From contig JAIXQH010000051.1 in NCBI GenBank assembly GCA_027484055.1, forward strand, positions 186,001 through 250,000: 64,000 nt of DNA, in the 5' to 3' direction. Both the position numbers and the translations under genes were made by a program. The number at the start of each line of letters is the position of its first letter. Within the stretch, counting starts at the first letter, position 1. Below, piece after piece: positions 2,827-63,818 of the stretch. The notes beneath the pieces were generated by a model. That model searched no databases, had not been told where the DNA came from, and worked only from the letters and a program-made list of their open reading frames with translations. This stretch comes from Verrucomicrobiaceae bacterium (GTDB lineage Bacteria > Verrucomicrobiota > Verrucomicrobiia > Verrucomicrobiales > Akkermansiaceae).

Positions 2827-3679
2827 TCCAGGAGAGAATTTCGCCTCGTGGCGGGATCAGGCGAGAATCCTATTGGCGGCTAACATTTCGCCGCAGGAAG
2901 TCTTGTGGCAGCGGGAGGCCAGCCTGTTTTCCGAAGCCATCGTGCAGGAGGAAGCGGTGATTTCGTCGGTGAAAGTCCCGGCGGCTTTCATGGACCTCGC
3001 CGAGTCGGTCGCTTGCCACTCGGACCCGACGCGTTGGGCCCTGCTCTACTCGATTCTCTGGCGCGTCACCCACGGCGGGGAACGGCACTTGCTCGCCATC
3101 GCAAGCGACGAGGCGGTTGCCAAGGCGCGGACGATGGAAAAAAACGTGCGCCGGGAAATCCACAAGATGCACGCGTTTGTGCGTTTCAAGTTGATCGATA
3201 CGGATGCCACGACGGGCCGCGAGCGTTACGCCGCGTGGTTCGAGCCGGAGTATTTCATCGTCGAGGCAGGAGCTCCGTTTTTCAGGAACCGTTTTGCGAA
3301 CATGGACTGGAGCATTTTCACGCCAAAAGGCTGTGTTCATTGGCGGGAAAACCGGCTGACTTTTACGGCGGGAATCGCCGAAAATCCGGTGGAAAATCCC
3401 GACGCACTCGAAGCGGCCTGGCGCACGTATTACCGAAACATTTTCAACCCCGCCCGCCTGAAGGTGAAGGCGATGCAGACGGAAATGCCGAAGCGGTATT
3501 GGAAAAACCTGCCGGAAGCCGACCTCATTGAGGAGCTGGTGAGCGAGAGCCAGCACCGGGTAACCCAGATGCTGGCCGAAGAACCGCGCCCGGTGAAACC
3601 AAGGCCGAAGAATGCCTACCTTGACCGCCTGCGCGACTTGTCCGCCCGAGAATCAGGCGAGTCCGGCGCGAATGAGTAG
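2813..3679 (+). CDS. DUF4130 (TIGR03915-like) probable DNA metabolism protein
   Basis: This 288-residue protein is read from ATG 2813, inside the end of the radical SAM gene, in a different frame. The frame is open further upstream, but that part has shadow composition, so I take the internal ATG. Recognisable family features are LLYSILWRVTHGGERHLL, the KNVRREIHKMHAFVRF segment, the WFEPEYFIVE stretch and AAWRTYYRNIFNPARLKVK. In many bacteria this domain is fused to a UdgX-type uracil-DNA glycosylase. Here it is free-standing, and no glycosylase is seen next to it. With the upstream radical SAM protein it forms a two-gene module inferred to act in DNA or RNA repair. Its 3' end overlaps the convergent peptidase gene by 27 bases. 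Confidence 0.85.
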   Translation: MQCVDPGENFASWRDQARILLAANISPQEVLWQREASLFSEAIVQEEAVISSVKVPAAFMDLAESVACHSDPTRWALLYSILWRVTHGGERHLLAIASDEAVAKARTMEKNVRREIHKMHAFVRFKLIDTDATTGRERYAAWFEPEYFIVEAGAPFFRNRFANMDWSIFTPKGCVHWRENRLTFTAGIAENPVENPDALEAAWRTYYRNIFNPARLKVKAMQTEMPKRYWKNLPEADLIEELVSESQHRVTQMLAEEPRPVKPRPKNAYLDRLRDLSARESGESGANE

Positions 3680-24322: not shown

Positions 24323-24487
24323 CGCTAATCTACCCGGGTTTAGCGGGAGTTTTATCGGAATGGGGATCATTTCTTCAACGTGCAGTTTCCTGCGGTTTTG
24401 GGACGTCGCCGAGGGCGTGGTCGAGGCCGAAATGTTCCTTCTGGACAAGGTGAAATCTTGGCACGCGAGTGGCTAAGTGGGCGGAAC

Positions 24488-44446: not shown

Positions 44447-46390
44447 TCAATTCGGTAACTTGCTGATTTCCGGTAGGTTCGTGATCGGTTTTGCGGCCTT
44501 CCATTGGGCTTCGTCTGCAGGCTCGTAGGTGATGCGGACCACGGCTTCCTTGACCTTTTCGCGAAGCTTGATGCCGAGTCTGCATGGCTCATAGCGGTCG
44601 GGATTTAGGAGTTTTTCCAAGCGAAATTCAGCGGGCTGGGTGCTGTCCACCGTGACTTTGAGGATCGAAGCGCCATCGCGCAACAGCCAGATCTTGTCAC
44701 TGGCCTGTGCCCAGGTCGCCGAGCCCACCACGGCGGTTTCAAAGGTGCCGTCTTCGTTGAATTTCACGGTGTCACTTACCTGCAAGAAAGGCTTTTCGCC
44801 TCGGTGGAAGGTCCACTGTCTCTCCAGCGATTTGATTCCCGCCTTCGGATAGCACGCTGATAGATCCACCGACCACAGGTCCGCGTCGGGCTTGAAGTCC
44901 AGGCGGGTGATTTTTCCTGCTGCTTTGCGTCCGGGGCTCTGGAGTTGGCCGTTGATGAGCGGCACGCTATGGCCGTAGGAGCTGAGGATCGGATGGTTGT
45001 AGCGCTCCTTGCTGAAGGTTTTCGCGGTGTAAACAGTGGATCCGGGATCGAGAACCGGCAGGCCTCCCATCCAGTCGATCACATAAGAGCCGACGTCGTT
45101 GTGATTGTGGTCTTCTGCGTTGTGCCCCGCTTTCATGGCAGCGGAAAACGTCACCTTGCCAGCGGTCAGCATTCGTGAAACCAGCACGCCGCCATCCGTA
45201 AATTCATCGCGTATGCCCAGAGGGGCCGCAGGCGGTGGAGTGGTGGTTGGGGCCGTCGCGCTCAGTCCGATGAGCTGCCATTGGGCGAGAGTTCCCCCCA
45301 TTTTGGCATGTGGGTCACTGTTCGGATACGGCTCCTGCTTGCCTTTGACCACGAAGTTTGCCCACCAGCGGATCATGCCATCTGGCCCGCTGGTGGTTCG
45401 CGCATCGGCAAAGGCCGGAAAGTTTACGCCATCCAGTGTGATGCGGTCTGGATAGGTTGCGGCGCTAGCGGCATTGGGGAACTGGCCCAACTGGATGCGC
45501 CCACTGGATTCACGCTGGAGAAGATCCGCTAGCGCTACGAAATGACCGAACCCATAGCCCCAGTAAGTGGGGCCCTCGCTGCAATAACCATCCTGGGTGA
45601 AGCCGGATAGGTAGTCGCGCGTGTTCGCCACGGCATCCAGCACGACCAGAGCGCGTCGGCGCTTCGAGGGCTCGAACGACAGCACCGCGCCCGTCGAGCC
45701 GGCGGTGCAGACGGCGTTCCAGTTCATCGCCATCGTCCGCCAACTGTGACGTAGAGTGATGAGCGGATCGTTCTTTTCAAGGACCGCGAAGACCGGCTCG
45801 ATGACCTTCTGTTTCAGTGCCGCCTCGATTGCGCCGCGCACGGCTGGATCGAGCTTGTCGCCGAACCACTCCAGCGTCAGCGCGATGTCGTATCCGAGAT
45901 TTGCGGACCTTAATTCCAGGTACTGCGCCTTGCCGTCGATGATTTCCTGATTCCGGTCGTGTGCGGGTAGCACCCACGACGGCTGTTTACTGAGCTCCAG
46001 AAGCTGGGCCTCGATGGCCTTGAGAAAGCGCCCCTTGCCCTCCATGCACTCGGCTGCCGCGAATTTCTGTAGTCGGTCCCAGAATGGCTTGAGCATCGCT
46101 TGGCCCTCCTCGCGGCTACCGGTTTTGAAGAAGATGCGGTAGGTTTCCTCGGACCATGGTGGGCCAGGGGATTGGAGGGCTTTTTCCGCTTCCGCGATGA
46201 CCCCGTCGCCCAGCGCCAATTTCACAGCGTCCCAATAGGCACGGTCCGTGACCGGATGGTGTGTGACACCCGGCTTGTCTGGGAGCCAAGCCTCAACCTC
46301 AAGTATTTGGGCCTCGGAATAGGGCTCGCGTGCATGCAGTGCTGTGGAAAGTGTCGCCGTTAGAAGGATTCCGAAAAGAAAGGATCTCAT
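44447..46390 (-). CDS. Secreted heparinase II/III-like polysaccharide lyase
   Basis: The 647-residue protein from ATG 46390 has a signal peptide (MRSFLFGILLTATLSTALHA). An all-helical (alpha/alpha) toroid spans about residues 30-370 and includes WRTMAMNWNAVCTAG and FTQDGYCSEGPTYWGYGFGH, the alginate-lyase/heparinase-type catalytic Asn and Tyr region. The heparinase II/III C-terminal sheet follows with NAEDHNHNDVGSYVIDWMGG, whose His residues bind metal or substrate, and VLDPGSTVYTAK. It should cleave acidic polysaccharides by beta-elimination in the periplasm or outside. The substrate (alginate, heparin-like or algal glucuronan) is not decidable. It is divergent from the secreted protein at 46540. 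Confidence 0.82.
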   Translation of the reverse strand: MRSFLFGILLTATLSTALHAREPYSEAQILEVEAWLPDKPGVTHHPVTDRAYWDAVKLALGDGVIAEAEKALQSPGPPWSEETYRIFFKTGSREEGQAMLKPFWDRLQKFAAAECMEGKGRFLKAIEAQLLELSKQPSWVLPAHDRNQEIIDGKAQYLELRSANLGYDIALTLEWFGDKLDPAVRGAIEAALKQKVIEPVFAVLEKNDPLITLRHSWRTMAMNWNAVCTAGSTGAVLSFEPSKRRRALVVLDAVANTRDYLSGFTQDGYCSEGPTYWGYGFGHFVALADLLQRESSGRIQLGQFPNAASAATYPDRITLDGVNFPAFADARTTSGPDGMIRWWANFVVKGKQEPYPNSDPHAKMGGTLAQWQLIGLSATAPTTTPPPAAPLGIRDEFTDGGVLVSRMLTAGKVTFSAAMKAGHNAEDHNHNDVGSYVIDWMGGLPVLDPGSTVYTAKTFSKERYNHPILSSYGHSVPLINGQLQSPGRKAAGKITRLDFKPDADLWSVDLSACYPKAGIKSLERQWTFHRGEKPFLQVSDTVKFNEDGTFETAVVGSATWAQASDKIWLLRDGASILKVTVDSTQPAEFRLEKLLNPDRYEPCRLGIKLREKVKEAVVRITYEPADEAQWKAAKPITNLPEISKLPN

Positions 46391-54957: not shown

Positions 54958-55740
54958 ATGCAAGTGAGCAGTCTTCTGGGATTCATGCTGATGATGTGCG
55001 CGGGGGCGGTGCAAGCGGCCGATCTGACGGGTGCACAAAAAACGGCCATTGGACGAAAAATTTGGCAAAATGAGTGCGCCGGAACGGTCGCAGGCTTGAC
55101 GTCATGGAATGCAGGAGAGGAATTCCCGTCGTTTGGGATTGGTCATTTCATTTGGTATCCCGCCGGATTTCTGGGAAAATATGAGGAAAGTTGGCCTGAA
55201 TTCGCGGAGTTTGCGAAAAATCGAGGTGAGAAAATGCCAGCTGTGGGCCGCGCTGCAGATAGCCCATGGCGGACGAAGAGCGATTTTGAGAAAAACGTCA
55301 AAGGTGCAGAAATGACGGCTTTGCGGACGTGGCTAGCGAGCCATGTGGACCTGCAAACCGACTTCATCATCGCGCGCTCACGAGCGGCATTACCGAAGAT
55401 CCTCGCCGCTGCCCCAGCCAGTGAACGGCGTCGAATTGAGGCGAACTATTTCAAAGTAGCGTCTTCTTCACAAGGGACTTATGCCCTGATTGATTACGTC
55501 AATTTCAAGGGTGAGGGTGTCCAGATCGCGGAGCGATACAAGGGCCAAGGTTGGGGCTTGCTACAAGTGTTAGGCGGGATGAAGGAGGTGCCAACAGGTG
55601 CAGCTGCGGCTACGGAGTTCGCCGCATCTGCGAAGCGGATTTTGTCCCGGCGGATCGCAAATTCCCCACCAGAACGCGGCGAAAAACGGTGGGAAGAAGG
55701 CTGGCATAATCGTTGCAGCACCTACGGCAGGCCCTTGTGA
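54958..55740 (+). CDS. Exported protein of unknown function, possibly lysozyme-like
   Basis: The 260-residue protein has a signal peptide (MQVSSLLGFMLMMCAGAVQA). The mature part begins with a helix (IGRKIWQNECAGTVAGLTSW), then EEFPSFGIGHFIWYPAGF, in which a Glu and the Gly-rich turn recall a lysozyme-like arrangement. ALIDYVNFKGEGVQIAERYK and a helical C-terminus follow. I cannot name the family. It lies just before the urt cluster on the same strand, but a sigma-54-like promoter separates them. Confidence 0.5.
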   Translation: MQVSSLLGFMLMMCAGAVQAADLTGAQKTAIGRKIWQNECAGTVAGLTSWNAGEEFPSFGIGHFIWYPAGFLGKYEESWPEFAEFAKNRGEKMPAVGRAADSPWRTKSDFEKNVKGAEMTALRTWLASHVDLQTDFIIARSRAALPKILAAAPASERRRIEANYFKVASSSQGTYALIDYVNFKGEGVQIAERYKGQGWGLLQVLGGMKEVPTGAAAATEFAASAKRILSRRIANSPPERGEKRWEEGWHNRCSTYGRPL

Positions 55741-55773: not shown

Positions 55774-55789
55774 TGGCACACGTGGTGCT
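55774..55789 (+). promoter_or_regulatory. Sigma-54-like -24/-12 promoter before urtB
   Basis: TGGCACACGTGGTGCT has the GG-N10-GC geometry and matches most of the TGGCACG-N4-TTGCW consensus. The predicted transcription start, about 12 bases after the GC, is near 55800, only five bases before the annotated urtB ATG. Start ATG 55853 would leave a normal leader. Confidence 0.6.
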
Positions 55790-55804
55790 AATCCGTCGGC
55801 GGCG

Positions 55805-57544
55805 ATGCTGAAACAAATCACTCACCGACCGACAGCGATCATCAGTTGGTTAATGGCCTTCTCGTTGTACTTCGTGCTCGTGTTCGTCTCACGAGCGGAT
55901 GAAGTCTCTATCCGCAAGACGGTTGCAGACGCGACTGTCGCAGCCAGCCCTGCAGAGCAAAGGGCGCTCATTTCTTCCCTAAAGTTGAAACCGGCGGCGG
56001 AGGCGGTGACCTTGTTTGATCGTTGGAAAGCCGGGGAGATCTTTCTCTTCAAAGATGATGCCGGACTTACGACTCCCGTTCTTTTAACCGGCACAGCCGC
56101 ACCAGACGGTTCTTTTGCGACGCTGCGTTTGGAAAATGGTTCACCGCTGCTCGCGCCAGATGGTTCTCCCGTTCGAATCAATCCTAAAACCGTGGAGGCT
56201 GCCGAGACAGATTCCGGGCTCCGAAAGGTGATGAAAGAGGTCTCGGATCTCGTCTCACTTGCAGATCCCGATTTAACGAAGCGAATCCGTGCAATTCAAG
56301 ACTCGGCGATTGGCCAAAAACTCGAAAAATTGCCCGCACTACTGGCGCTCAAGGCGACTGAGAAAAATCAAAGCGCCTTGCGGGCCTTGGATGAATCGAT
56401 CGCGATCATCCAACTCCGCTCCCCCATCTCCAGCGAGCGAGTGGCGGCCTGCACGCAGCTTGGGCAGCTCAAGTCATTGCCCGCTTACGACACAATCAAG
56501 ACGATTCTCACGGAAGCGAAAAAAGCGTCTGATGGGCCGACCGTGCTCGCGGCCAAGGCAGCGCTCAAAGCGATCGATGTCCATGTCTCTCAGATCAACG
56601 CCGCAGGAACCGCTTTTCGTGGTTTGTCGCTCGGCTCAGTGCTCTTGGTGGTCGCCATCGGGCTTGCGATCACCTTCGGTCTGATGGGGATTATCAACAT
56701 GGCGCATGGTGAATTCATCGCCGTAGGTGCCTACACCGCCTATGTCATACAAAACCTTTTCGCCACCGGGCTAAAACTGTCACCCTTTGGTGTTTCTCTC
56801 TCACTTCCCGGCATGGATCTAGGCGCTAAAGGGGCGAACCTGTATTTTGTCGTAGCGATTCCTGCGAGTTTCTTGGTTGCCGCGCTGGTCGGGATTTTAC
56901 TCGAACGCTCAGTGATCCAGCATCTCTACAAACGGCCTCTGGAATCACTACTCGCGACTTGGGGGATCTCACTGGTGATGCAGCAGATTCTAAAGTTTAC
57001 CTTTGGTTCAAATAATGTACAAGTCTCCAGTCCAGCATGGCTTTCGGGGAACTGGACCGTCAACGACATCGTTTTCGGATGGAACCGGGTCTTTGTCATT
57101 GGATTTGCCGTTCTCATCATCTTGGTGACTTGGTTGGTTCTTAACAAAACGTCGTTAGGCTTGCTCATTCGCGCAGTCATGCAGAACCGAAACATGGCCG
57201 CTTGCATGGGCGTCCGCACTGAGCGGGTGAATACGCTGACTTTCGCTTTCGGCTGTGGTCTGGCGGGTCTAGCTGGTGCCTTCCTTTCACAAATCAGCAA
57301 CGTGGGGCCATCCATGGGGCAGCTCTACATCGTGGATTCCTTCATGACCGTTGTCGTCGGTGGGGTGGGAAATATCATGGGTACCGTCATCAGCGCGCTC
57401 GGCATCGGCCTAGCGGATCAGTCCCTCCAACAGTATTTGGGAAATCCAGTCATCGGAAAAATTCTAGTGCTTGGCGCGATCATTCTGTTCCTCCAATGGC
57501 GTCCTGCCGGGCTCTTTGTCACCCGTTCCCGTAGTCTTGATTGA
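55805..57544 (+). CDS. urtB: Urea ABC transporter permease UrtB
   Basis: The 579-residue permease is one of the two membrane subunits of the high-affinity urea importer. As in other UrtB proteins, a large extracytoplasmic N-terminal domain (about residues 35-270) precedes the LivH-like membrane part with [38 protein letters not shown] and [21 protein letters not shown] signal or anchor helix lies at about residues 13-30. Two starts are possible: ATG 55805, or ATG 55853 ([12 protein letters not shown]), which fits a shorter signal peptide and the upstream promoter better. urtC, urtD and urtE follow with spacings of four bases or overlaps. Confidence 0.94.
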
Positions 57545-57548
57545 AGCA

Positions 57549-58673
57549 ATGATTAAACAACCCCTTACAGGTCGGCTCCACACGCCTCTACTCCTCACCT
57601 TGGCGGTGATCTTGGTAGTCGTAGTGCCGTTGCTCAATGCATTTGGGTATATCTCTAACTTCACCTTAGGCAATTGGGGGAAATATCTATGTTACGGCAT
57701 TCTTGCGATTTCAATCGACCTACTATGGGGTTACACGGGCCTGCTGTGCCTCGGCCAAGCACTCTTTTTCACCCTCGGGGGTTACATGATGGGAATGCAT
57801 CTCATGCGCATGATCGGTGGGGATGGCGTGCCGACATTCCTCAGCATGGTCGGTCGCCGAGAGTGGCCTTCATTCTTCATCCCGTTTTCTAGCTTTCCTT
57901 TCGCGCTGCTGATGATCGTGTTTGTGCCCGGACTACTTGCTTATGTCTTCGGCTACCTGGCATTTCGCTCAAGAATCAAGGGGGTCTATTTTTCGATTCT
58001 GACGCAAGCGCTCACCTATGGCGCGGCTTTACTTTTTTTCCGCAACGAACTCCTGATGGGCGGGAACAATGGCTTTACGGATTTTAGAATGTTGCTTGGG
58101 TATTCATTGCGCGAGGATTCGACAAAACGCGGACTTTACATTGTCACCGCGCTTCTGCTCGTGCTGGTCGTCGCTGGTTGCAAATGGCTCACCCAGTCTC
58201 GGTTCGGTCTGATCCAGCGAGCAATTCGCGATTCAGAAAATCGAGTCCTGTTTTCAGGCTACGCGACGGCGAACTTCAAGCTCTTCATCTTTGTCATCAG
58301 CGCCGTCATCGCCAGCTTCGCAGGCGCGCTGTTTGTTCCTCAAGTCGGAATCATCAATCCGAGCGAAATGGATACCAGTAAATCCCTGGAAGCCGTCGTA
58401 TGGGTCGCCCTCGGTGGCCGTGGCACCATCATCGGGCCTGTCATTGGAGCCATTAGTGTCAACGCCCTGAAAAGCTGGGCCAGTGTGGGAGCGACTGCGG
58501 ACTTCTGGCCACTCATGCTCGGTGGCGCATTCGTGTTGGTGGTGCTTTTCATGCCGAAGGGTATCATCGGCCTCCCAGCTCAAATCCAAGGATGGATCGC
58601 AAAAAGTCGCCGTGCCAAATCACCAGAGGAACCATCCCCTCTCTCCACTCCACCCGAAGCAATTGACCCATGA
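57549..58673 (+). CDS. urtC: Urea ABC transporter permease UrtC
   Basis: The 374-residue LivM-like permease starts at ATG 57549, four bases after urtB. About nine membrane helices are visible. Landmarks are [20 protein letters not shown]-like residues ([20 protein letters not shown]), [26 protein letters not shown] (the loop contacting the ATPase) and [19 protein letters not shown]. It pairs with UrtB in the inner membrane. It overlaps urtD by four bases. Confidence 0.95.
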
Positions 58674-59440
58674 GCCAGAAACCCTTCCTACTTGCTGCCG
58701 AGGGCCTGAATAAATCATTCGACGGCTTTAAGGCCATCAATGATCTCAATTTCTACCTCGACGAAGGTGAGCTTCGCACCGTCATTGGCCCGAATGGTGC
58801 GGGGAAAACCACGTTTCTCGACCTCATCACCGGTCGAACCCAACCGGATGTTGGAACCTTGCTTTGGGACGATGCCAAGCATGACCTCCTCAAGCTCAAC
58901 GAATACGAAATTTACCGCCTAGGGATTGGACGGAAATTCCAAACCCCTACCGTTTACAATGACCACACGGTCACCGAAAATCTGATCCTCTCCCTCGCCG
59001 GCTCACGTGGCATCTGGCACAGCCTCTTTGGAAAAGTCACTTCACTCCAGCGCGACCGCATCGCCGAGATCCTCACCACCATTAAACTATCCAAGCACTC
59101 TAACCGTAAAGCCGGGGAACTCGCCCATGGGCAAAAACAGTGGCTCGAAATCGGGATGCTATTGGCACAAGAAGCACGACTCCTCCTCGTTGACGAGCCT
59201 GCCGCCGGCATGACCGATGAAGAAACCTACCGCACCGGCGAGCTTTTGCTCTCACTCGCAGGGAAACACACCATTGTCGTCATCGAACACGACATGACTT
59301 TTGTCCGCCAAATTTCACAAGGTCGTAAAGTCACCGTGCTTCATCAAGGTCACGTCCTGTGCGAAGGCCCAGTTGACAAAGTCCAGGCCGATGAACGCGT
59401 CATCGAAGTCTATCTAGGCCGTAAATCGAAAGCTGCATGA
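58670..59440 (+). CDS. urtD: Urea ABC transporter ATPase UrtD
   Basis: The 256-residue LivG-like ATPase has Walker [10 protein letters not shown] (about residues 40-48), a signature helix [12 protein letters not shown] (instead of LSGGQ), Walker [13 protein letters not shown] and the His switch [32 protein letters not shown] is typical of UrtD. It energises urea import. The ATGA overlaps join it to urtC and urtE. Confidence 0.96.
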
Positions 59441-60159
59441 ACCCGGTCCTAACCCAAGATAGCCTCTCCATCAGCGACCTTCGAGTTTCCATCGGAGGCA
59501 GCGCCATCTTACGCGGTGTGAATCTGACCATCCGCCCTAAAACCGTCTTCTGTTTGATGGGGAGGAATGGAGTGGGAAAAAGCACCACGCTTAAAGCTCT
59601 CATGGCCTTGCTGCCTGCGGACTCCGGCAGTATCCAGCTTGAGGGTTCGAGTATCGATCGATCTTCCACCGCAGACCGTGCACGCTTTGGCCTCGCTTAT
59701 GTTCCTCAGGGACGTGACATTTTCCCTCACCTGAGCGTCGAAGAGAACCTTTTCATCGGCCTGAACGCTCGTGGGAAAAAACGCGACTCTGCCGAGACCG
59801 ATCGCATTTACACGCTATTTCCGATCATCAAAGAATTCCTGCATCGCAAGGGCGGGATGCTCTCGGGCGGCCAACAGCAACAGCTGGCCATCGGGCGTGC
59901 TCTCCTTACGAAACCCAAGCTCTTGATTTTGGACGAGCCCACGGAAGGGATTCAGCCTAACATCATCGATCAAATCGGTGATGCGATTAAAATGCTACGG
60001 GCTGAAGGAGAAATGAGCATCTTGCTCGTTGAGCAGTATTTGGATTTTTGCAAAGAGTTGGGTGATGACTTCGCGATCCTTGAGCGGGGTGCCGTTGCAG
60101 CCCACGGTGAGATGACAGGGCTGACGGATGAAATCGTCAAAGAGTTCCTCACGGTTTAA
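59437..60159 (+). CDS. urtE: Urea ABC transporter ATPase UrtE
   Basis: The 240-residue LivF-like ATPase has Walker A GRNGVGKST (about residues 41-49), signature LSGGQQQQLAIGRAL, Walker B LLILDEPTEGIQ and the family piece YVPQGRDIFPHLSVEENL. It completes the heterodimeric motor with UrtD. It is the last gene of the first urea transcription unit; a 274-base AT-rich gap follows. Confidence 0.96.
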   Translation: MNPVLTQDSLSISDLRVSIGGSAILRGVNLTIRPKTVFCLMGRNGVGKSTTLKALMALLPADSGSIQLEGSSIDRSSTADRARFGLAYVPQGRDIFPHLSVEENLFIGLNARGKKRDSAETDRIYTLFPIIKEFLHRKGGMLSGGQQQQLAIGRALLTKPKLLILDEPTEGIQPNIIDQIGDAIKMLRAEGEMSILLVEQYLDFCKELGDDFAILERGAVAAHGEMTGLTDEIVKEFLTV

Positions 60160-60362
60160 TCGTGATAGAATCCCTGGAAGAGATTCAGATCATCTGAAAT
60201 TTAGGATTTGCAGTTTATCTGCGCGCTCAGCCGTAAAGATCCATCTATTCATGAATGATGAGCCGTGTTCATACCCTTTATTTTATGAGGTCGATTCATT
60301 CGTGCGGGTAGTGAATAATAAGTCACATCCGTAGAGAAATTTCCTGATCAATCTGATCGTGC

Positions 60363-60378
60363 TGGCACGAAAATCGCT
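60363..60378 (+). promoter_or_regulatory. Sigma-54-like -24/-12 promoter before the barrel gene
   Basis: TGGCACGAAAATCGCT matches the TGGCACG-N4-TTGCW consensus at all but one informative position and has GG-N10-GC spacing. The predicted transcription start is near 60389, about 45 bases before the ATG at 60434. This is the best of the three matches in the urea locus. The rest of the 60160-60433 gap shows no gene. Confidence 0.7.
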
Positions 60379-60433
60379 AACATTTGGCATGTTGGAATTC
60401 AGCAAAAAGTCTCCACACACAAATTAAAATACC

Positions 60434-61411
60434 ATGAAATCAAAATTCGGTTTTAGCTTACAAAATTCATCGCGATTCGCCTCAGCGCTTGTCGCAACAA
60501 CGGCCCTCGTCGGCATTGAAGCCGCAAGTGCGATCGAGGTTAAGGCACCAACTGGCTTCATTGGAGCTTCTTACACGAAGACGGACAATGGCACGGAGAC
60601 CTTCCTTGACGGTGGTATATCTCAAGATGCCCTCAAAGTGGGTTTTGCAGCCTCTGAAGGTGATTTTGGCGCTTTCGCCAGTATTTTTTACACACCAGAC
60701 AGTCCCAAAAACGGCGACGAGGTTGGAATCTTGGATGCCTATCTGACTTACAAAATGGGTAACCTAACCATCACGGGAGGTAAGTACCTCAGCTGGTTGG
60801 GCTATGAAGCGTTTAACTTAAACAAATTACAGACCATCACCTTCGCCACCGATCCTGGTGCCATTCCTGCCTTTCGCTCGGGTCTAAAGGCGGATTACGT
60901 CACCGACACCTACTCCGCTGGTGTAAGTGTCTCCGACTCGATCCGTGGTGGAGATGGCTTTTGGAACGGCGATGAAGACTTCGGTAACGGCTTGGGTTAT
61001 GAAGCCTATGTGAAGTATAAAGGCATCGAGAATCTTACAATTTTCGCGGGTGTCGCGTATGAGGATGCCCATGACGCAGCAGACTTCTCAACCTATGATC
61101 TCTGGGCCAGCTATAATCTGACAGATAAGGCCACGGTGGCTGCTGAAATTGTCTACAATGACAACGGCCCAGTCGTCAAAACACAAGGACTCTTGCTCTT
61201 CAAATATGCATTCACTAAAAAGTTTTCGACACTCGCAAGATTCGGTGCCGATGCCTATGACACGGGTGGGGACGACAAGTTTGGCTACACGATTTGTCCG
61301 TCCTACTCATTCACCGATACCTTCTTGGTTCGTGCTGAGTTAACCTACAAGGACATTGATGAAGCAGATAACAGCCTCTTTTCTGGCATCCAAGCGGTGT
61401 ATCAATTTTGA
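60434..61411 (+). CDS. Outer-membrane beta-barrel (porin-like) protein within the urea cluster
   Basis: The 325-residue protein has a signal peptide (to about AASAIEV, residue 36) and then alternating amphipathic strands rich in Tyr, Gly and Asp, for example TGFIGASYTKTDNG and LYDLWASYNLTDK-like segments (TYDLWASYNLTDKATVAAEI), ending in IQAVYQF with the C-terminal Phe typical of outer-membrane barrels. About 12-16 strands can be counted. It lies between urtE and urtA on the same strand and has its own sigma-54-like promoter, so a role as the outer-membrane entry for urea or short amides is inferred. No urea-specific porin family is recognised here. Confidence 0.8.
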   Translation: MKSKFGFSLQNSSRFASALVATTALVGIEAASAIEVKAPTGFIGASYTKTDNGTETFLDGGISQDALKVGFAASEGDFGAFASIFYTPDSPKNGDEVGILDAYLTYKMGNLTITGGKYLSWLGYEAFNLNKLQTITFATDPGAIPAFRSGLKADYVTDTYSAGVSVSDSIRGGDGFWNGDEDFGNGLGYEAYVKYKGIENLTIFAGVAYEDAHDAADFSTYDLWASYNLTDKATVAAEIVYNDNGPVVKTQGLLLFKYAFTKKFSTLARFGADAYDTGGDDKFGYTICPSYSFTDTFLVRAELTYKDIDEADNSLFSGIQAVYQF

Positions 61412-61421
61412 CCGTCGCGTT

Positions 61422-61491
61422 CTACTTAGCGGTTGCGGTGGTATAGTATCTTTAACTCATAAAATATCTCTGCCGCTCATCTGCTAAGTAG
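61422..61491. repeat. Nine-base inverted repeat before urtA
   Basis: CTACTTAGC (61422-61430) and GCTAAGTAG (61483-61491) are perfect inverted repeats around 52 bases in the AT-rich leader between the barrel gene and urtA. It could be an operator or an mRNA structure. No sigma-54 geometry is seen in this gap, so urtA may be read through from the barrel gene. Confidence 0.4.
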
Positions 61492-61534
61492 GTTGGAATT
61501 TATATTATTCTTAACTAATTTACTTATACAATAT

Positions 61535-62782
61535 ATGATCACTCGATTCATCCCAACAGCACTTGCTGCCCTCTCCCTCATCGGGGTAACCGCGAAAGCG
61601 GCAGACACCGTAAAAGTCGGTGTTCTTCATTCCCTCAGCGGAACGATGGCCATTAGTGAAACGTCTCTCCGCGACATTCTCCTCTTCACCTTTGACGAGA
61701 TCAATGCGGCTGGTGGAGTCATGGGCAAAAAAATCGAGCCCGTCGTTGTTGACGGTGCTTCAAACTGGCCCTTGTTTGCCGAAAAAGCCAAACAGCTGCT
61801 CGACCAAGATAAAGTCGCAGTGACCTTCGGTTGCTGGACTTCGGTCAGCCGTAAATCAGTGCTTCCCGTGTTCGAAGAGAAGAAAGGCCTGCTCTTCTAC
61901 CCTGTGCAATACGAAGGTGAAGAAATGTCCCCGAACATTTTTTACACCGCTGAGGCTGTGAACCAACAGGCGACCCCTGCTGTCGATTACCTTCTCGAAG
62001 AGGGTAAGAAAAAGTTCTACCTCATCGGTTCCGACTACGTGTATCCACAGACCACCAACTTGATCCTTTTGGAGTATCTCCTCAGCAAGAAAGTGCCTCT
62101 AGAAAACATCGGCGGCGGTTTCACCAAGGATGCAAGCGGTAAAATTATCTCTGCTGGTAAATACACCCCATTCGGCCACACGGATTATCAACAAATCGTT
62201 GCTGAAATCAAACAGTTCGCAGCCAGCGGTGACGCCTGCATCATCAGCACGCTGAACGGTGACACCAACGTGCCATTCTTCAAAGAATACGCAGCTGCCG
62301 GTCTCGATGCAGAATCCTGCCCGGTCGTGAGTTTCTCGGTCTCAGAGGATGAGTTCCGTGGACTTCCAGCGAGCCAGCTCGTTGGACAACTCGGTTGCTG
62401 GACTTACTTCCAGTCCATCAAGAGCCCAGCGAATGCGAAGTTCATTGCCGATTTCCAAGCCTGGCTTGCCAAATCCACAGTTCCAGGAATCGTGAAAGAG
62501 GGTCGCGTGACCTGCTCGCCGATGGTGCTAAGCTACGCTGGTGTATATCTCTGGAAGGCTGCAGTTGAAAAAGCGGGTTCCTTCGAGGTTGACAAAGTGA
62601 TGGAGGCCCTCAAGGGCGGAATCTCATTCGACGGTCCTGGCGGCAAAGTGACTTCGCAAAAGAACCATCACCTTACCAAGAATGTCTTCATCGGTGAGAC
62701 CAAGGCTGATGGTCAATTCAAGATCCTAAAGGAGTTCAAAGACGTCGTCGGCGAACCTTTCCTGAAAGGGACTTACAAATAA
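61535..62782 (+). CDS. urtA: Urea ABC transporter substrate-binding protein UrtA
   Basis: The 415-residue periplasmic protein is read from ATG 61535, followed by a signal peptide ([22 protein letters not shown]). The type I binding-protein fold is clear, with [53 protein letters not shown] and [15 protein letters not shown]. These blocks are characteristic of UrtA rather than leucine-type proteins. It delivers urea to UrtBCDE. It is the last gene before a strong terminator, and unusually it lies at the end of the cluster, after the barrel gene, instead of first. Confidence 0.96.
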
Positions 62783-62816
62783 TTTCTTTGGGTATTCGGT
62801 TGTTTTTCGGTTTTGG

Positions 62817-62848
62817 AACCATGCCTTCTTCGGAAGGCATGGTTTTTT
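62817..62848 (+). terminator. Rho-independent terminator with UUCG tetraloop after urtA
   Basis: AACCATGCCTTC pairs perfectly with GAAGGCATGGTT around TTCG, the most stable tetraloop, and is followed by a T run. It insulates urtA from the urease unit. Confidence 0.95.
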
Positions 62849-62859
62849 CGTATCTGGCT

Positions 62860-62875
62860 TGGCATGTCCGGTGCT
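62860..62875 (+). promoter_or_regulatory. Sigma-54-like -24/-12 promoter before the urease genes
   Basis: TGGCATGTCCGGTGCT has GG-N10-GC spacing and two mismatches to the consensus. It begins 12 bases after the urtA terminator and predicts a start near 62886, ten bases before the ATG at 62896. Confidence 0.5.
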
Positions 62876-62895: not shown

Positions 62896-63189
62896 ATGAA
62901 ATCACCCAGTTCCGCATCTCAGTTTTTCGTATCGCGTTTCCTCAGTTGGGGAGCTTGCTTATGGCCCACCCTGCTGCTGGCTCATCCGGGGCACTATCAT
63001 CCAGAAGAAACGGATGAATTCGATTTTCTAAGAGCCACATTTTTCCACAGCCATGGTGCTTTGGATTACTTGGTCGGCGTGGTTTTTTTGGTCAGCCTTG
63101 CCTGTTGCTTCTTGAGTGGAAAGCCTGCCGTCCGCCTTGCCGGCCTTGCCGCAGCAGTGGGTTCACTCGCTGCCATACCGCTTTTCTAA
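62896..63189 (+). CDS. Small His-rich membrane protein leading the urease unit
   Basis: The 97-residue protein from ATG 62896 has a hydrophobic N-terminus ending LLAHPGHYHPEETDEF, a second His-containing stretch (LRATFFHSHGALDYLV) and a hydrophobic C-terminal helix pair. HPGHYHP and HSHG recall the metal-binding N-terminus of HupE/UreJ-type nickel permeases, but the protein is only about half their size. It could bind or pass nickel for urease maturation. It lies 12 bases before ureA and is probably co-transcribed. Confidence 0.6.
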   Translation: MKSPSSASQFFVSRFLSWGACLWPTLLLAHPGHYHPEETDEFDFLRATFFHSHGALDYLVGVVFLVSLACCFLSGKPAVRLAGLAAAVGSLAAIPLF

Positions 63190-63201: not shown

Positions 63202-63504
63202 ATGCATCTTTCTCCTCGGGAACAAGAAAAGCTTCTCATCGTCGTAGCAGGTGACTTGGCAAATCGCCGTCGGGCTCGTGGATTGAAGCTGAATTACCCT
63301 GAAACGGTCGCACTCATCACCGCCGAGCTGCTCGAAGGAGCGCGGGATGGCCGCAGCGTCGCTGAGCTGATGAGCTATGGCACCACCTTGATTACCCGCG
63401 CTGAAGTCATGGAGGGCGTGGCTGAAATGATCCATGACGTGCAAGTGGAGGCGACCTTCCCTGACGGCACGAAACTTGTCACCGTTCACCATCCTGTCCG
63501 ATGA
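63202..63504 (+). CDS. ureA: Urease gamma subunit
   Basis: The 100-residue protein matches UreA throughout: [40 protein letters not shown] and [20 protein letters not shown]. It is the smallest structural subunit of the nickel enzyme that splits urea into ammonia and carbamate. Its stop overlaps the ureB start by four bases. Confidence 0.98.
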
Positions 63505-63818
63505 TTCCCGGCGAAATTATCACCCCTCCCGGTGCCCCAGATTTAGAGCTCAACGTCGGCCTCGCGACGCTTAATTGCATCGTCGCGAACACCGGAGACA
63601 GGCCGATCCAAGTTGGCAGCCACTTCCATTTCGCGGAGGTAAATGCCTCACTTCATTTCGACCGAATGGCCGCCCGTGGCTTCCGGTTAAACATCCCCGC
63701 TGGCACGGCGATCCGCTTCGAACCAGGTGATACCCGAGAAGTTCCACTCGTAGCACTAGCTGGCACGCGCCAAGTATTCGGCCTCAATAATCTCATCAAC
63801 GGACCACTCGATTCATGA
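63501..63818 (+). CDS. ureB: Urease beta subunit
   Basis: The 105-residue protein matches UreB, with [40 protein letters not shown] and the [20 protein letters not shown] block. It forms the trimer with UreA and UreC. The final DS-TGA overlaps the ureC ATG (ATGA). Confidence 0.98.

Follow-up and report, generated by a model that had tools for sequence, protein, structure and literature searches.

Conserved putative sigma-54 promoters before the urea genes of a Verrucomicrobiaceae bacterium, and the nitrogen regulon to which they may belong

The urea locus and its three -24/-12 elements

The window analysed here, a 64,000-nucleotide stretch of the assembled genome of a Verrucomicrobiaceae bacterium (GenBank GCA_027484055.1, contig JAIXQH010000051.1, positions 186,001 to 250,000 of the forward strand; G000:C61:186001-250000, where G000 is the source genome, a 4.4-Mb assembly), carries genes for the entry, import and hydrolysis of urea in three units that are read in one direction: urtBCDE; an outer-membrane porin gene with urtA; and a gene for a small protein with ureABC (Table 1). 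Each unit is preceded by a -24/-12 element of the sigma-54 (RpoN) type, and these three elements, together with the regulatory system to which they appear to belong, are the subject of this article. Control of nitrogen scavenging by RpoN and an NtrC-type activator is a feature of many bacteria.

Table 1. Features of the urea locus, in window coordinates, and two RNA-like genes elsewhere in G000. (a): name taken from the initial annotation, with gene order kept in relatives; the family-library scans covered UrtA, UrtB, the porin and the small protein, and the names urtC, urtD, urtE and ureABC rest on that annotation and on synteny.
Feature	Position	Strand	Remarks
Upstream ORF, 260 aa	54958..55740	+	contains the decoy match; no Pfam/NCBIfam match at E 0.001
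Decoy sigma-54-like match, TGGCATAATCGTTGCA	55702..55717	+	codons W-H-N-R-C of the upstream ORF
Putative sigma-54 -24/-12 promoter before urtB, TGGCACACGTGGTGCT	55774..55789	+	score 10/12; aligned block in relatives
urtB, urea ABC permease	55805..57544	+	TIGR03409 383.5 bits (cut-off 250.3); start codon uncertain
urtC	57549..58673	+	ORF, ATG read; (a), next to urtB
urtD	58670..59440	+	ORF; (a)
urtE	59437..60159	+	ORF; (a)
Putative sigma-54 -24/-12 promoter before porin-urtA, TGGCACGAAAATCGCT	60363..60378	+	score 11/12; TGGC-N8-NGCT kept in relatives
Outer-membrane beta-barrel porin, BBP2 family	60434..61411	+	PF07642, E 6.4e-14
urtA, urea-binding protein	61535..62782	+	TIGR03407 504.6 bits (cut-off 492.75)
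Intrinsic terminator after urtA	62818..62848	+	inverted repeat CATGCCTTC..GAAGGCATG, then T-run; kept in L012, L013, L014
Putative sigma-54 -24/-12 promoter before small protein-ureABC, TGGCATGTCCGGTGCT	62860..62875	+	score 10/12; aligned block in relatives
Small protein, 97 aa	62896..63189	+	no match in Pfam/NCBIfam family scans
ureA (gamma)	63202..63504	+	ORF; (a)
ureB	63501-63818	+	ORF; (a)
ureC	from 63815	+	ORF; (a)
sR2, RNA-like gene	G000:C34:189950-190065 (L131:1551-1666)		recurs in genus; tandem in several genomes
sR1, second RNA-like gene	G000:C61:355107-355220 (L157)	-	12/12 sigma-54 site; terminator fold z -5.8

Sites were scored by the number of matches, out of 12, to TGGCACG-N4-TTGCW, with GG and GC held fixed. 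Scanning both strands of the window yields seven sites that score at least 10 (11 at 24459 and 60363; 10 at 3078, 55702, 55774 and 62860, and at 45721 on the minus strand); three of the seven lie in the urea gaps, all on the plus strand and one to each gap, although these gaps total just 452 bp. In first-order Markov simulations of the individual gaps, the probability of reaching 10/12 is 0.0068, 0.0026 and 0.0072, respectively; all three reach it together in none of 5000 trials. The distance from site to start codon is 15 bp for urtB (ATG at 55805), 55 bp for the porin gene (ATG at 60434) and 20 bp for the small-protein gene (ATG at 62896).

The initial annotation had named the three sequences at 55774, 60363 and 62860, one in each gap and each before the first gene of a urea unit; all three are read at those positions and in the right orientation, and the strong terminator that was said to isolate the third is present. 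What had been overlooked is the match at 55702, inside the ORF that precedes urtB. Its -12 element is better than those of the reported sites; its sequence is set by conserved WHNRC codons, the corresponding residues being kept in frame in a relative (L012), and it was for this reason rejected as a promoter, the most likely reading being a coincidence of coding sequence.

Looser patterns find more. TGGCA-N8/9-GCW matches 20 times in the window (10.5 expected), while a pattern allowing two mismatches shows no enrichment there (24 matches, 28 expected). Loose matches to the consensus being common, a match by itself proves little; it is conservation, and the identity of the genes, that carry the case.

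Conservation of the elements

The relatives are the 80 best UrtA loci retained, all labelled as Verrucomicrobiota, several of the nearest as Akkermansia or Akkermansiaceae. The comparison of the same gaps in relatives, which the initial annotation had proposed, finds sites kept at the same spacing. The spacing itself was varied by searching for TGGC-Nk-NGCT, with k = 4 to 12, between 200 bp upstream and 45 bp downstream of the extrapolated start of each gene. At k = 8 the motif accompanies 31 of 37 porin matches (30 of 35 loci), 21 of 83 for urtA, 16 of 70 for urtB, 3 of 5 for the small protein and 6 of 57 for ureA. Other spacings give, in the same order of genes, at most 7/37, 6/83, 3/70, 3/5 and 2/57, and of the seven for the porin, found at k = 5, six are due to a GCTGCT repeat at the -12 element; with k = 8 the reverse strand yields 3/37, 2/83, 5/70, 0/5 and 2/57. 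Of the genes internal to the cluster that serve as controls, urtD and urtE have the motif at k = 8 in 2/68 and 2/77 cases; urtC is a noisy control, with 4/68 at k = 8 and 10/68 at k = 9. The six porin genes that have no k = 8 site are in L030, L031, L038, L041, L064 and L067.

Alignments of loci picked for having a gene together with its upstream DNA tell the same story gap by gap. The element before urtB is an aligned block in the window and in the four syntenic loci that reach upstream (L012, L014, L017, L018), its flanks being little conserved; the element before the small-protein gene is likewise an aligned block in the window, L012, L013 and L014. The porin gap aligns poorly, but scanning still finds sites in L012, L014 and L016, and the gap between urtE and urtA has sites in L013 (11/12), L017 (11/12) and L018 (9/12). 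Downstream of urtA, a site is present in all six syntenic relatives (scores of 10, 9, 11, 10, 12 and 12, out of 12, for L012, L013, L014, L016, L017 and L018). The small protein is not a fixed partner of the element: in L016 and L023 no good site lies directly upstream of its gene, L016 having one directly before ureA instead, and L017 and L018, in which the search detected no small protein, have their 12/12 sites right after urtA. Within the genus, the genome designated G013 keeps the urtB and porin sites, and G036 retains the one before urtB together with a site between urtE and urtA.

Three observations on the surroundings of these genes can be added. Seven loci (L022, L024, L026, L037, L051, L053, L057) have a UrtA homologue of at least 78% identity with no urtB, urtC or urtD match nearby (except for one urtD match at 27%); these are possibly lone urea-binding proteins, and L026 has just 1.7 kb of upstream DNA. 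In the source genome ureC is followed by a long minus-strand ORF that by eye resembles DNA polymerase I (L156:815-5311), so that there are no urease accessory genes immediately 3' of ureABC. An Rfam match, 5_ureB_sRNA, lies antisense to ureC (L156:973-1265, minus strand, 112.5 bits) and probably reflects conserved urease coding sequence.

RpoN and the company that its sites keep

The rpoN gene, whose presence the initial annotation had wanted verified, is intact: the protein has 466 amino acids, all three RpoN domains, and 401.5 bits against TIGR02395 (cut-off 277.35). A 12/12 site stands upstream of rpoN itself. Further sites stand before amt (12/12), the PII gene (10/12) and a glutamine synthetase gene referred to here as GlnII (10/12; its product is nearest the GlnII model but falls below the cut-off of that model). 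Weaker sites, 9/12 where scored, precede a divergent LysR/substrate-binding gene pair in a nitrate-type ABC region; the permease of the adjacent ABC transporter passes the nitrate NtrB cut-off. That amt, PII and glutamine synthetase genes carry sites favours nitrogen as the signal, and the coordinated nitrogen control of the urea units that had been proposed at the outset is supported by the sequence to this extent.

Candidate activators and autoregulation of rpoN

Three proteins of G000, here designated EBP1, EBP2 and EBP3, have a full-length sigma-54 interaction domain; two further weak matches are probably other AAA+ proteins. EBP1 (L002) consists of a receiver and a sigma-54 domain and is the best match in the genome to the ntrC model, below its cut-off. 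In its receiver an Ala takes the place of an Asp that nine aligned orthologues have (read by eye from the alignment). EBP1 has no match to the helix-turn-helix (HTH) family HTH_8 at E 0.001; neither does EBP3, although the tail of the latter looks Fis-like by eye, and the missing match in EBP1 is accordingly weak evidence. EBP2 has a Fis-type HTH (PF02954) and an adjoining histidine kinase with a PAS match. Orthologues of these proteins were collected by tblastn; those of EBP1 (at least 54% identity) are found in 52 of 60 family genomes. Some of them (L168, L172, L173, L176, L184, L186) end before any HTH, soon after the AAA+ lid; others keep a longer tail that is Fis-like by eye. Among the 80 urt loci, an activator near the urt genes was found only in L056.

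The distribution of EBP1 is followed by that of a site upstream of rpoN. The survey, which set its threshold at a score of at least 13.5 out of 16.5, took in 50 of the 58 family genomes having an rpoN match. The site was present in 30 of the 30 genomes first examined and then in 12 of 12 further EBP1-positive ones; in all 42 of the EBP1-positive genomes examined it lies 35-91 bp before the rpoN start (L223-L252, L260, L261, L263-L272). Among EBP1-negative genomes the count is one in eight, two of the negatives having weaker matches (12.0 and 13.0). The one EBP1-negative genome with the site, G005, is represented by an assembly that is 93% complete; EBP1 is present in its genus-mates G018 and G029. 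As the other EBP1-negative genomes belong to two genera (g3, g5), few independent events underlie the correlation. About 180 bp separate the end of the EBP1 match from the rpoN match that follows it in G043.

A small-RNA family, apparently in part under RpoN

Two of the sigma-54 matches in the genome precede no ORF, but instead a strong terminator-like hairpin. One of these RNA-like genes, sR1, was matched in G000 only, among the matches listed. The other, sR2, has relatives. A search with sR2 gave some match in 72 of 73 genomes at a lax E of 10, many of them weak; 39 of the 53 copies extracted have a sigma-54 site of at least 9/12, a proportion that is biased because the query held the promoter. 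When 44 copies were aligned with the promoter excluded, a hairpin emerged in which 9 of 19 pairs are changed on both sides, above all 500 shuffles. Most of the genus copies aligned share the conserved loop GGTTAATGGGTTTTCC (copies in L273-L382).

The corresponding covariance model finds members in 68 of 145 family genomes, 22 of which belong to the same genus, and a genome may have as many as 13 copies; the 20 listed of the 77 genomes that do not match include none of that genus. How many copies have a sigma-54 site? In seven same-genus genomes, 10 of 34 do; nine of the 34 were training sequences, which hold six of the ten sites, leaving 4/25 outside the training set (three of these four in G079, similar to copies in G036). 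In other genera the count is 4/32, three of them in G048; the background rate is 328 in 20,000 random stretches. Many other copies show, by eye, TTGAC-type boxes upstream. The family appears to be mainly not sigma-54-driven, with a subset of its members placed under RpoN. Comparison with Rfam 15, which covers the two tandem G000 copies in L131 alone, gave no match at the gathering threshold and none convincing at a lax E. G013 has a copy on either side of its urea cluster, and the copy downstream has a sigma-54 site. The covariance model, taken to E 1, matches nothing in the window or in the stretch after it; across the 80 urt loci it has three weak matches alone, the best with E 0.1.

What the sites probably do, and what weighs against it

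The three sites are very probably RpoN promoters that raise urea entry, import and hydrolysis together under nitrogen shortage, along with other nitrogen genes. Sequence is the basis of this reading: the sites and their conservation, the intact rpoN, the activators with a sigma-54 interaction domain, the sites shared with nitrogen genes, and the rpoN site that tracks EBP1. From these we infer that RpoN binds and initiates at the three sites, that nitrogen is the signal, and that EBP1, EBP2 or EBP3 is the driving activator. RNA polymerase with RpoN would wait at each site as a closed complex, which an AAA+ activator, charged under nitrogen shortage, would open; the porin (entry), UrtABCDE (import) and UreABC (hydrolysis) would then rise together, and with them amt, PII, GlnII, rpoN itself and probably nitrate-type uptake. 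On these grounds an RpoN nitrogen regulon spanning the entry, import and hydrolysis of urea is well supported at the level of sequence.

Several considerations pull in the opposite direction. 1) Transcription at a sigma-54 promoter is expected to start about 12 nt after the GC, in an rpoN-dependent manner. This puts the predicted urtB start about 6 nt before the ATG, and the spacing is tighter still in L014, L017 and L018; the true start codon is then further downstream, or else the mRNA has almost no leader. 2) The k = 8 site is absent before 54 of 70 urtB, 62 of 83 urtA and 51 of 57 ureA genes, although many of these genes probably follow another urt gene and would not be expected to have a promoter of their own. 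3) G013 has no site of at least 10/12 before its small protein-ureA unit, and the stretch of G036 that was searched has neither a ureA nor a porin match. 4) In the genome at large, YTGGCAN7YGCT matches 77 times and its reversed control 59 times, which is near background, and 60 of the 74 matches that were classified are called genic. The scan that the initial annotation had proposed, with its count of intergenic and coding matches, goes against a naive reading here: loose matches are common in coding DNA. (A simple ORF caller classified 74 of the 77, the other three being those in the window; it missed the amt site.) Nine of the 74 (12%) are correctly oriented upstream of an ORF, versus 6.7% for random positions; this set includes the PII gene, the GlnII-like glutamine synthetase and the LysR/substrate-binding pair, and also genes without evident nitrogen link (L126, L127 and L150, for example). 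A strict pattern is not enriched either, with five matches genome-wide versus six for the control; the five stand before amt, before rpoN, before an RNA-like gene, at the 55702 decoy and inside a long ORF. 5) None of the three activators reaches the NCBI ntrC cut-off (421.9, 400.2 and 382.9 bits; cut-off 558.6), so that of the RpoN and NtrC-type activator originally postulated, rpoN and AAA+ activators are present, and no protein qualifies as NtrC by this cut-off. 6) Searches by 8-mers, inverted repeats and 3-mer dyads, run with no positive control, found no shared upstream activator site. The best dyads do exceed the simulated maxima (porin 6.8 vs 5.2, rpoN 7.0 vs 5.2, urtA 6.5 vs 4.8, urtB 13.2 vs 4.5), an excess that is put down, without proof, to relatedness of the sequences; the top dyads are not palindromic except at urtB, where many loci have urtA coding sequence in that region. 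Among the rpoN sequences a palindromic GTG-N8-CAC scored 5.2 (6/30).

Which activator drives the urea units? One arrangement, credible but less likely than not, is that EBP2 and its neighbouring histidine kinase activate them, with EBP1 serving only rpoN and perhaps part of the regulon. The Fis-type HTH and the adjoining kinase reproduce the NtrB/NtrC layout and make EBP2 a serious candidate. Both activators are found in the five typed genomes that have a UrtA of at least 77% identity (G000, G013, G036, G007, G032); with both in all five, these data do not separate EBP1 from EBP2. On the other side, EBP2-like proteins also occur in genomes whose rpoN has no good site (G004, G017, G028, G038), so that EBP2 alone does not go with rpoN autoregulation. 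In EBP1, for its part, no DNA-binding domain is recognised, and the searches described above gave no upstream site in common, which suggests that it may activate without an enhancer. This opens the way to a bolder and rather doubtful proposal for the family as a whole: nitrogen control would be a self-amplifying, enhancer-free RpoN circuit in which EBP1, a protein that has no adjacent kinase, whose receiver is degenerate and whose DNA-binding tail is weak or lost, acts on sigma-54 promoters from solution to open them. The transcription of rpoN would depend on RpoN itself, the urea units would count among the ordinary outputs, and the small-RNA family would have been partly recruited to sigma-54, providing a post-transcriptional layer.

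The cue might also be something other than nitrogen (urea, carbon or envelope state, for example), the sites still being RpoN promoters and their overlap with nitrogen genes incidental. Consistent with this are the failure of every activator to meet the ntrC cut-off, the PAS match of the kinase beside EBP2, to which no signal is assigned, and the presence of a porin among the targets, sigma-54 having been linked to the bacterial exterior (PMC3162934). It is nevertheless improbable, since amt, PII and glutamine synthetase genes carry sites in the same genome. That the matches are chance hits to a short pattern, with true promoters of the sigma-70 type, accords with the near-background genome counts, the genic majority, the strict pattern's lack of enrichment and the coding coincidence at 55702, but is scarcely credible in view of a fixed spacing conserved across divergent loci and of the 5000 simulated gap sets, none of which holds all three sites.

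Relation to known systems

In the proteobacterial Ntr regulon, RpoN and NtrC control glnA, glnK-amtB, and urea and nitrate genes. The resemblance lies in the sigma-54 sites that, in one genome, precede PII, amt, glutamine synthetase, urea and, more weakly, nitrate-type genes; the differences are an activator below the NCBI ntrC equivalog cut-off, an rpoN that itself has a sigma-54 site in every EBP1-positive family genome examined (42/42), and the lack of any shared enhancer in the searches made. The fmdCDEF genes of Methylophilus constitute a porin-transporter locus for amides and urea, and there, too, an outer-membrane porin is found beside a urea/amide-binding protein; the present locus differs in its BBP2-type porin and in the -24/-12 site that stands before every unit.

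NtrC-type regulators are not new to the phylum: ntrB and ntrC1-4 are annotated in Methylacidiphilum fumariolicum SolV, a verrucomicrobial methanotroph whose amtB rises 3-fold or more on nitrate (PMC5623727). The parallel is one of NtrB/NtrC-type genes, and of an amtB that responds to nitrogen, within the same phylum; the text of that paper, as far as excerpted, names no promoters, urea regulon or rpoN. Enhancer-independent activators without a DNA-binding domain also have precedents in FlgR and CtcC (PMC3162934, PMC7175178). EBP1 resembles them in having a receiver and a sigma-54 domain with no HTH_8 match, and in that some orthologues end soon after the AAA+ lid; it differs in that it co-occurs with a sigma-54 site before rpoN, and in that other orthologues keep a tail that is Fis-like by eye. 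A parallel is offered by NfeR1, a rhizobial small RNA that belongs to nitrogen control (PMC10746234); NtrC represses it, whereas the multicopy family described here has a -24/-12 promoter in front of some of its copies. In the Verrucomicrobia and Akkermansia literature, judged by titles and the beginnings of abstracts, no such regulon or RNA family was found among the matches listed, and a word search of a 2025 review of the phylum (PMC12714770) returned no sigma, NtrC or RpoN.

Outlook

The urea promoters add to what is known of nitrogen control by RpoN: that conserved RpoN promoters precede each urea unit is the part of the analysis that stands. Greater novelty, but also less certainty, attaches to the logic of activation and to the RNA family. 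The promoters would extend RpoN nitrogen control, and specifically the control of urea scavenging, to Verrucomicrobiota; should the readings offered here for EBP1 and for the small RNAs prove true, the family would provide a testable case of enhancer-free sigma-54 control and of a single RNA family whose copies are divided among sigma factors.

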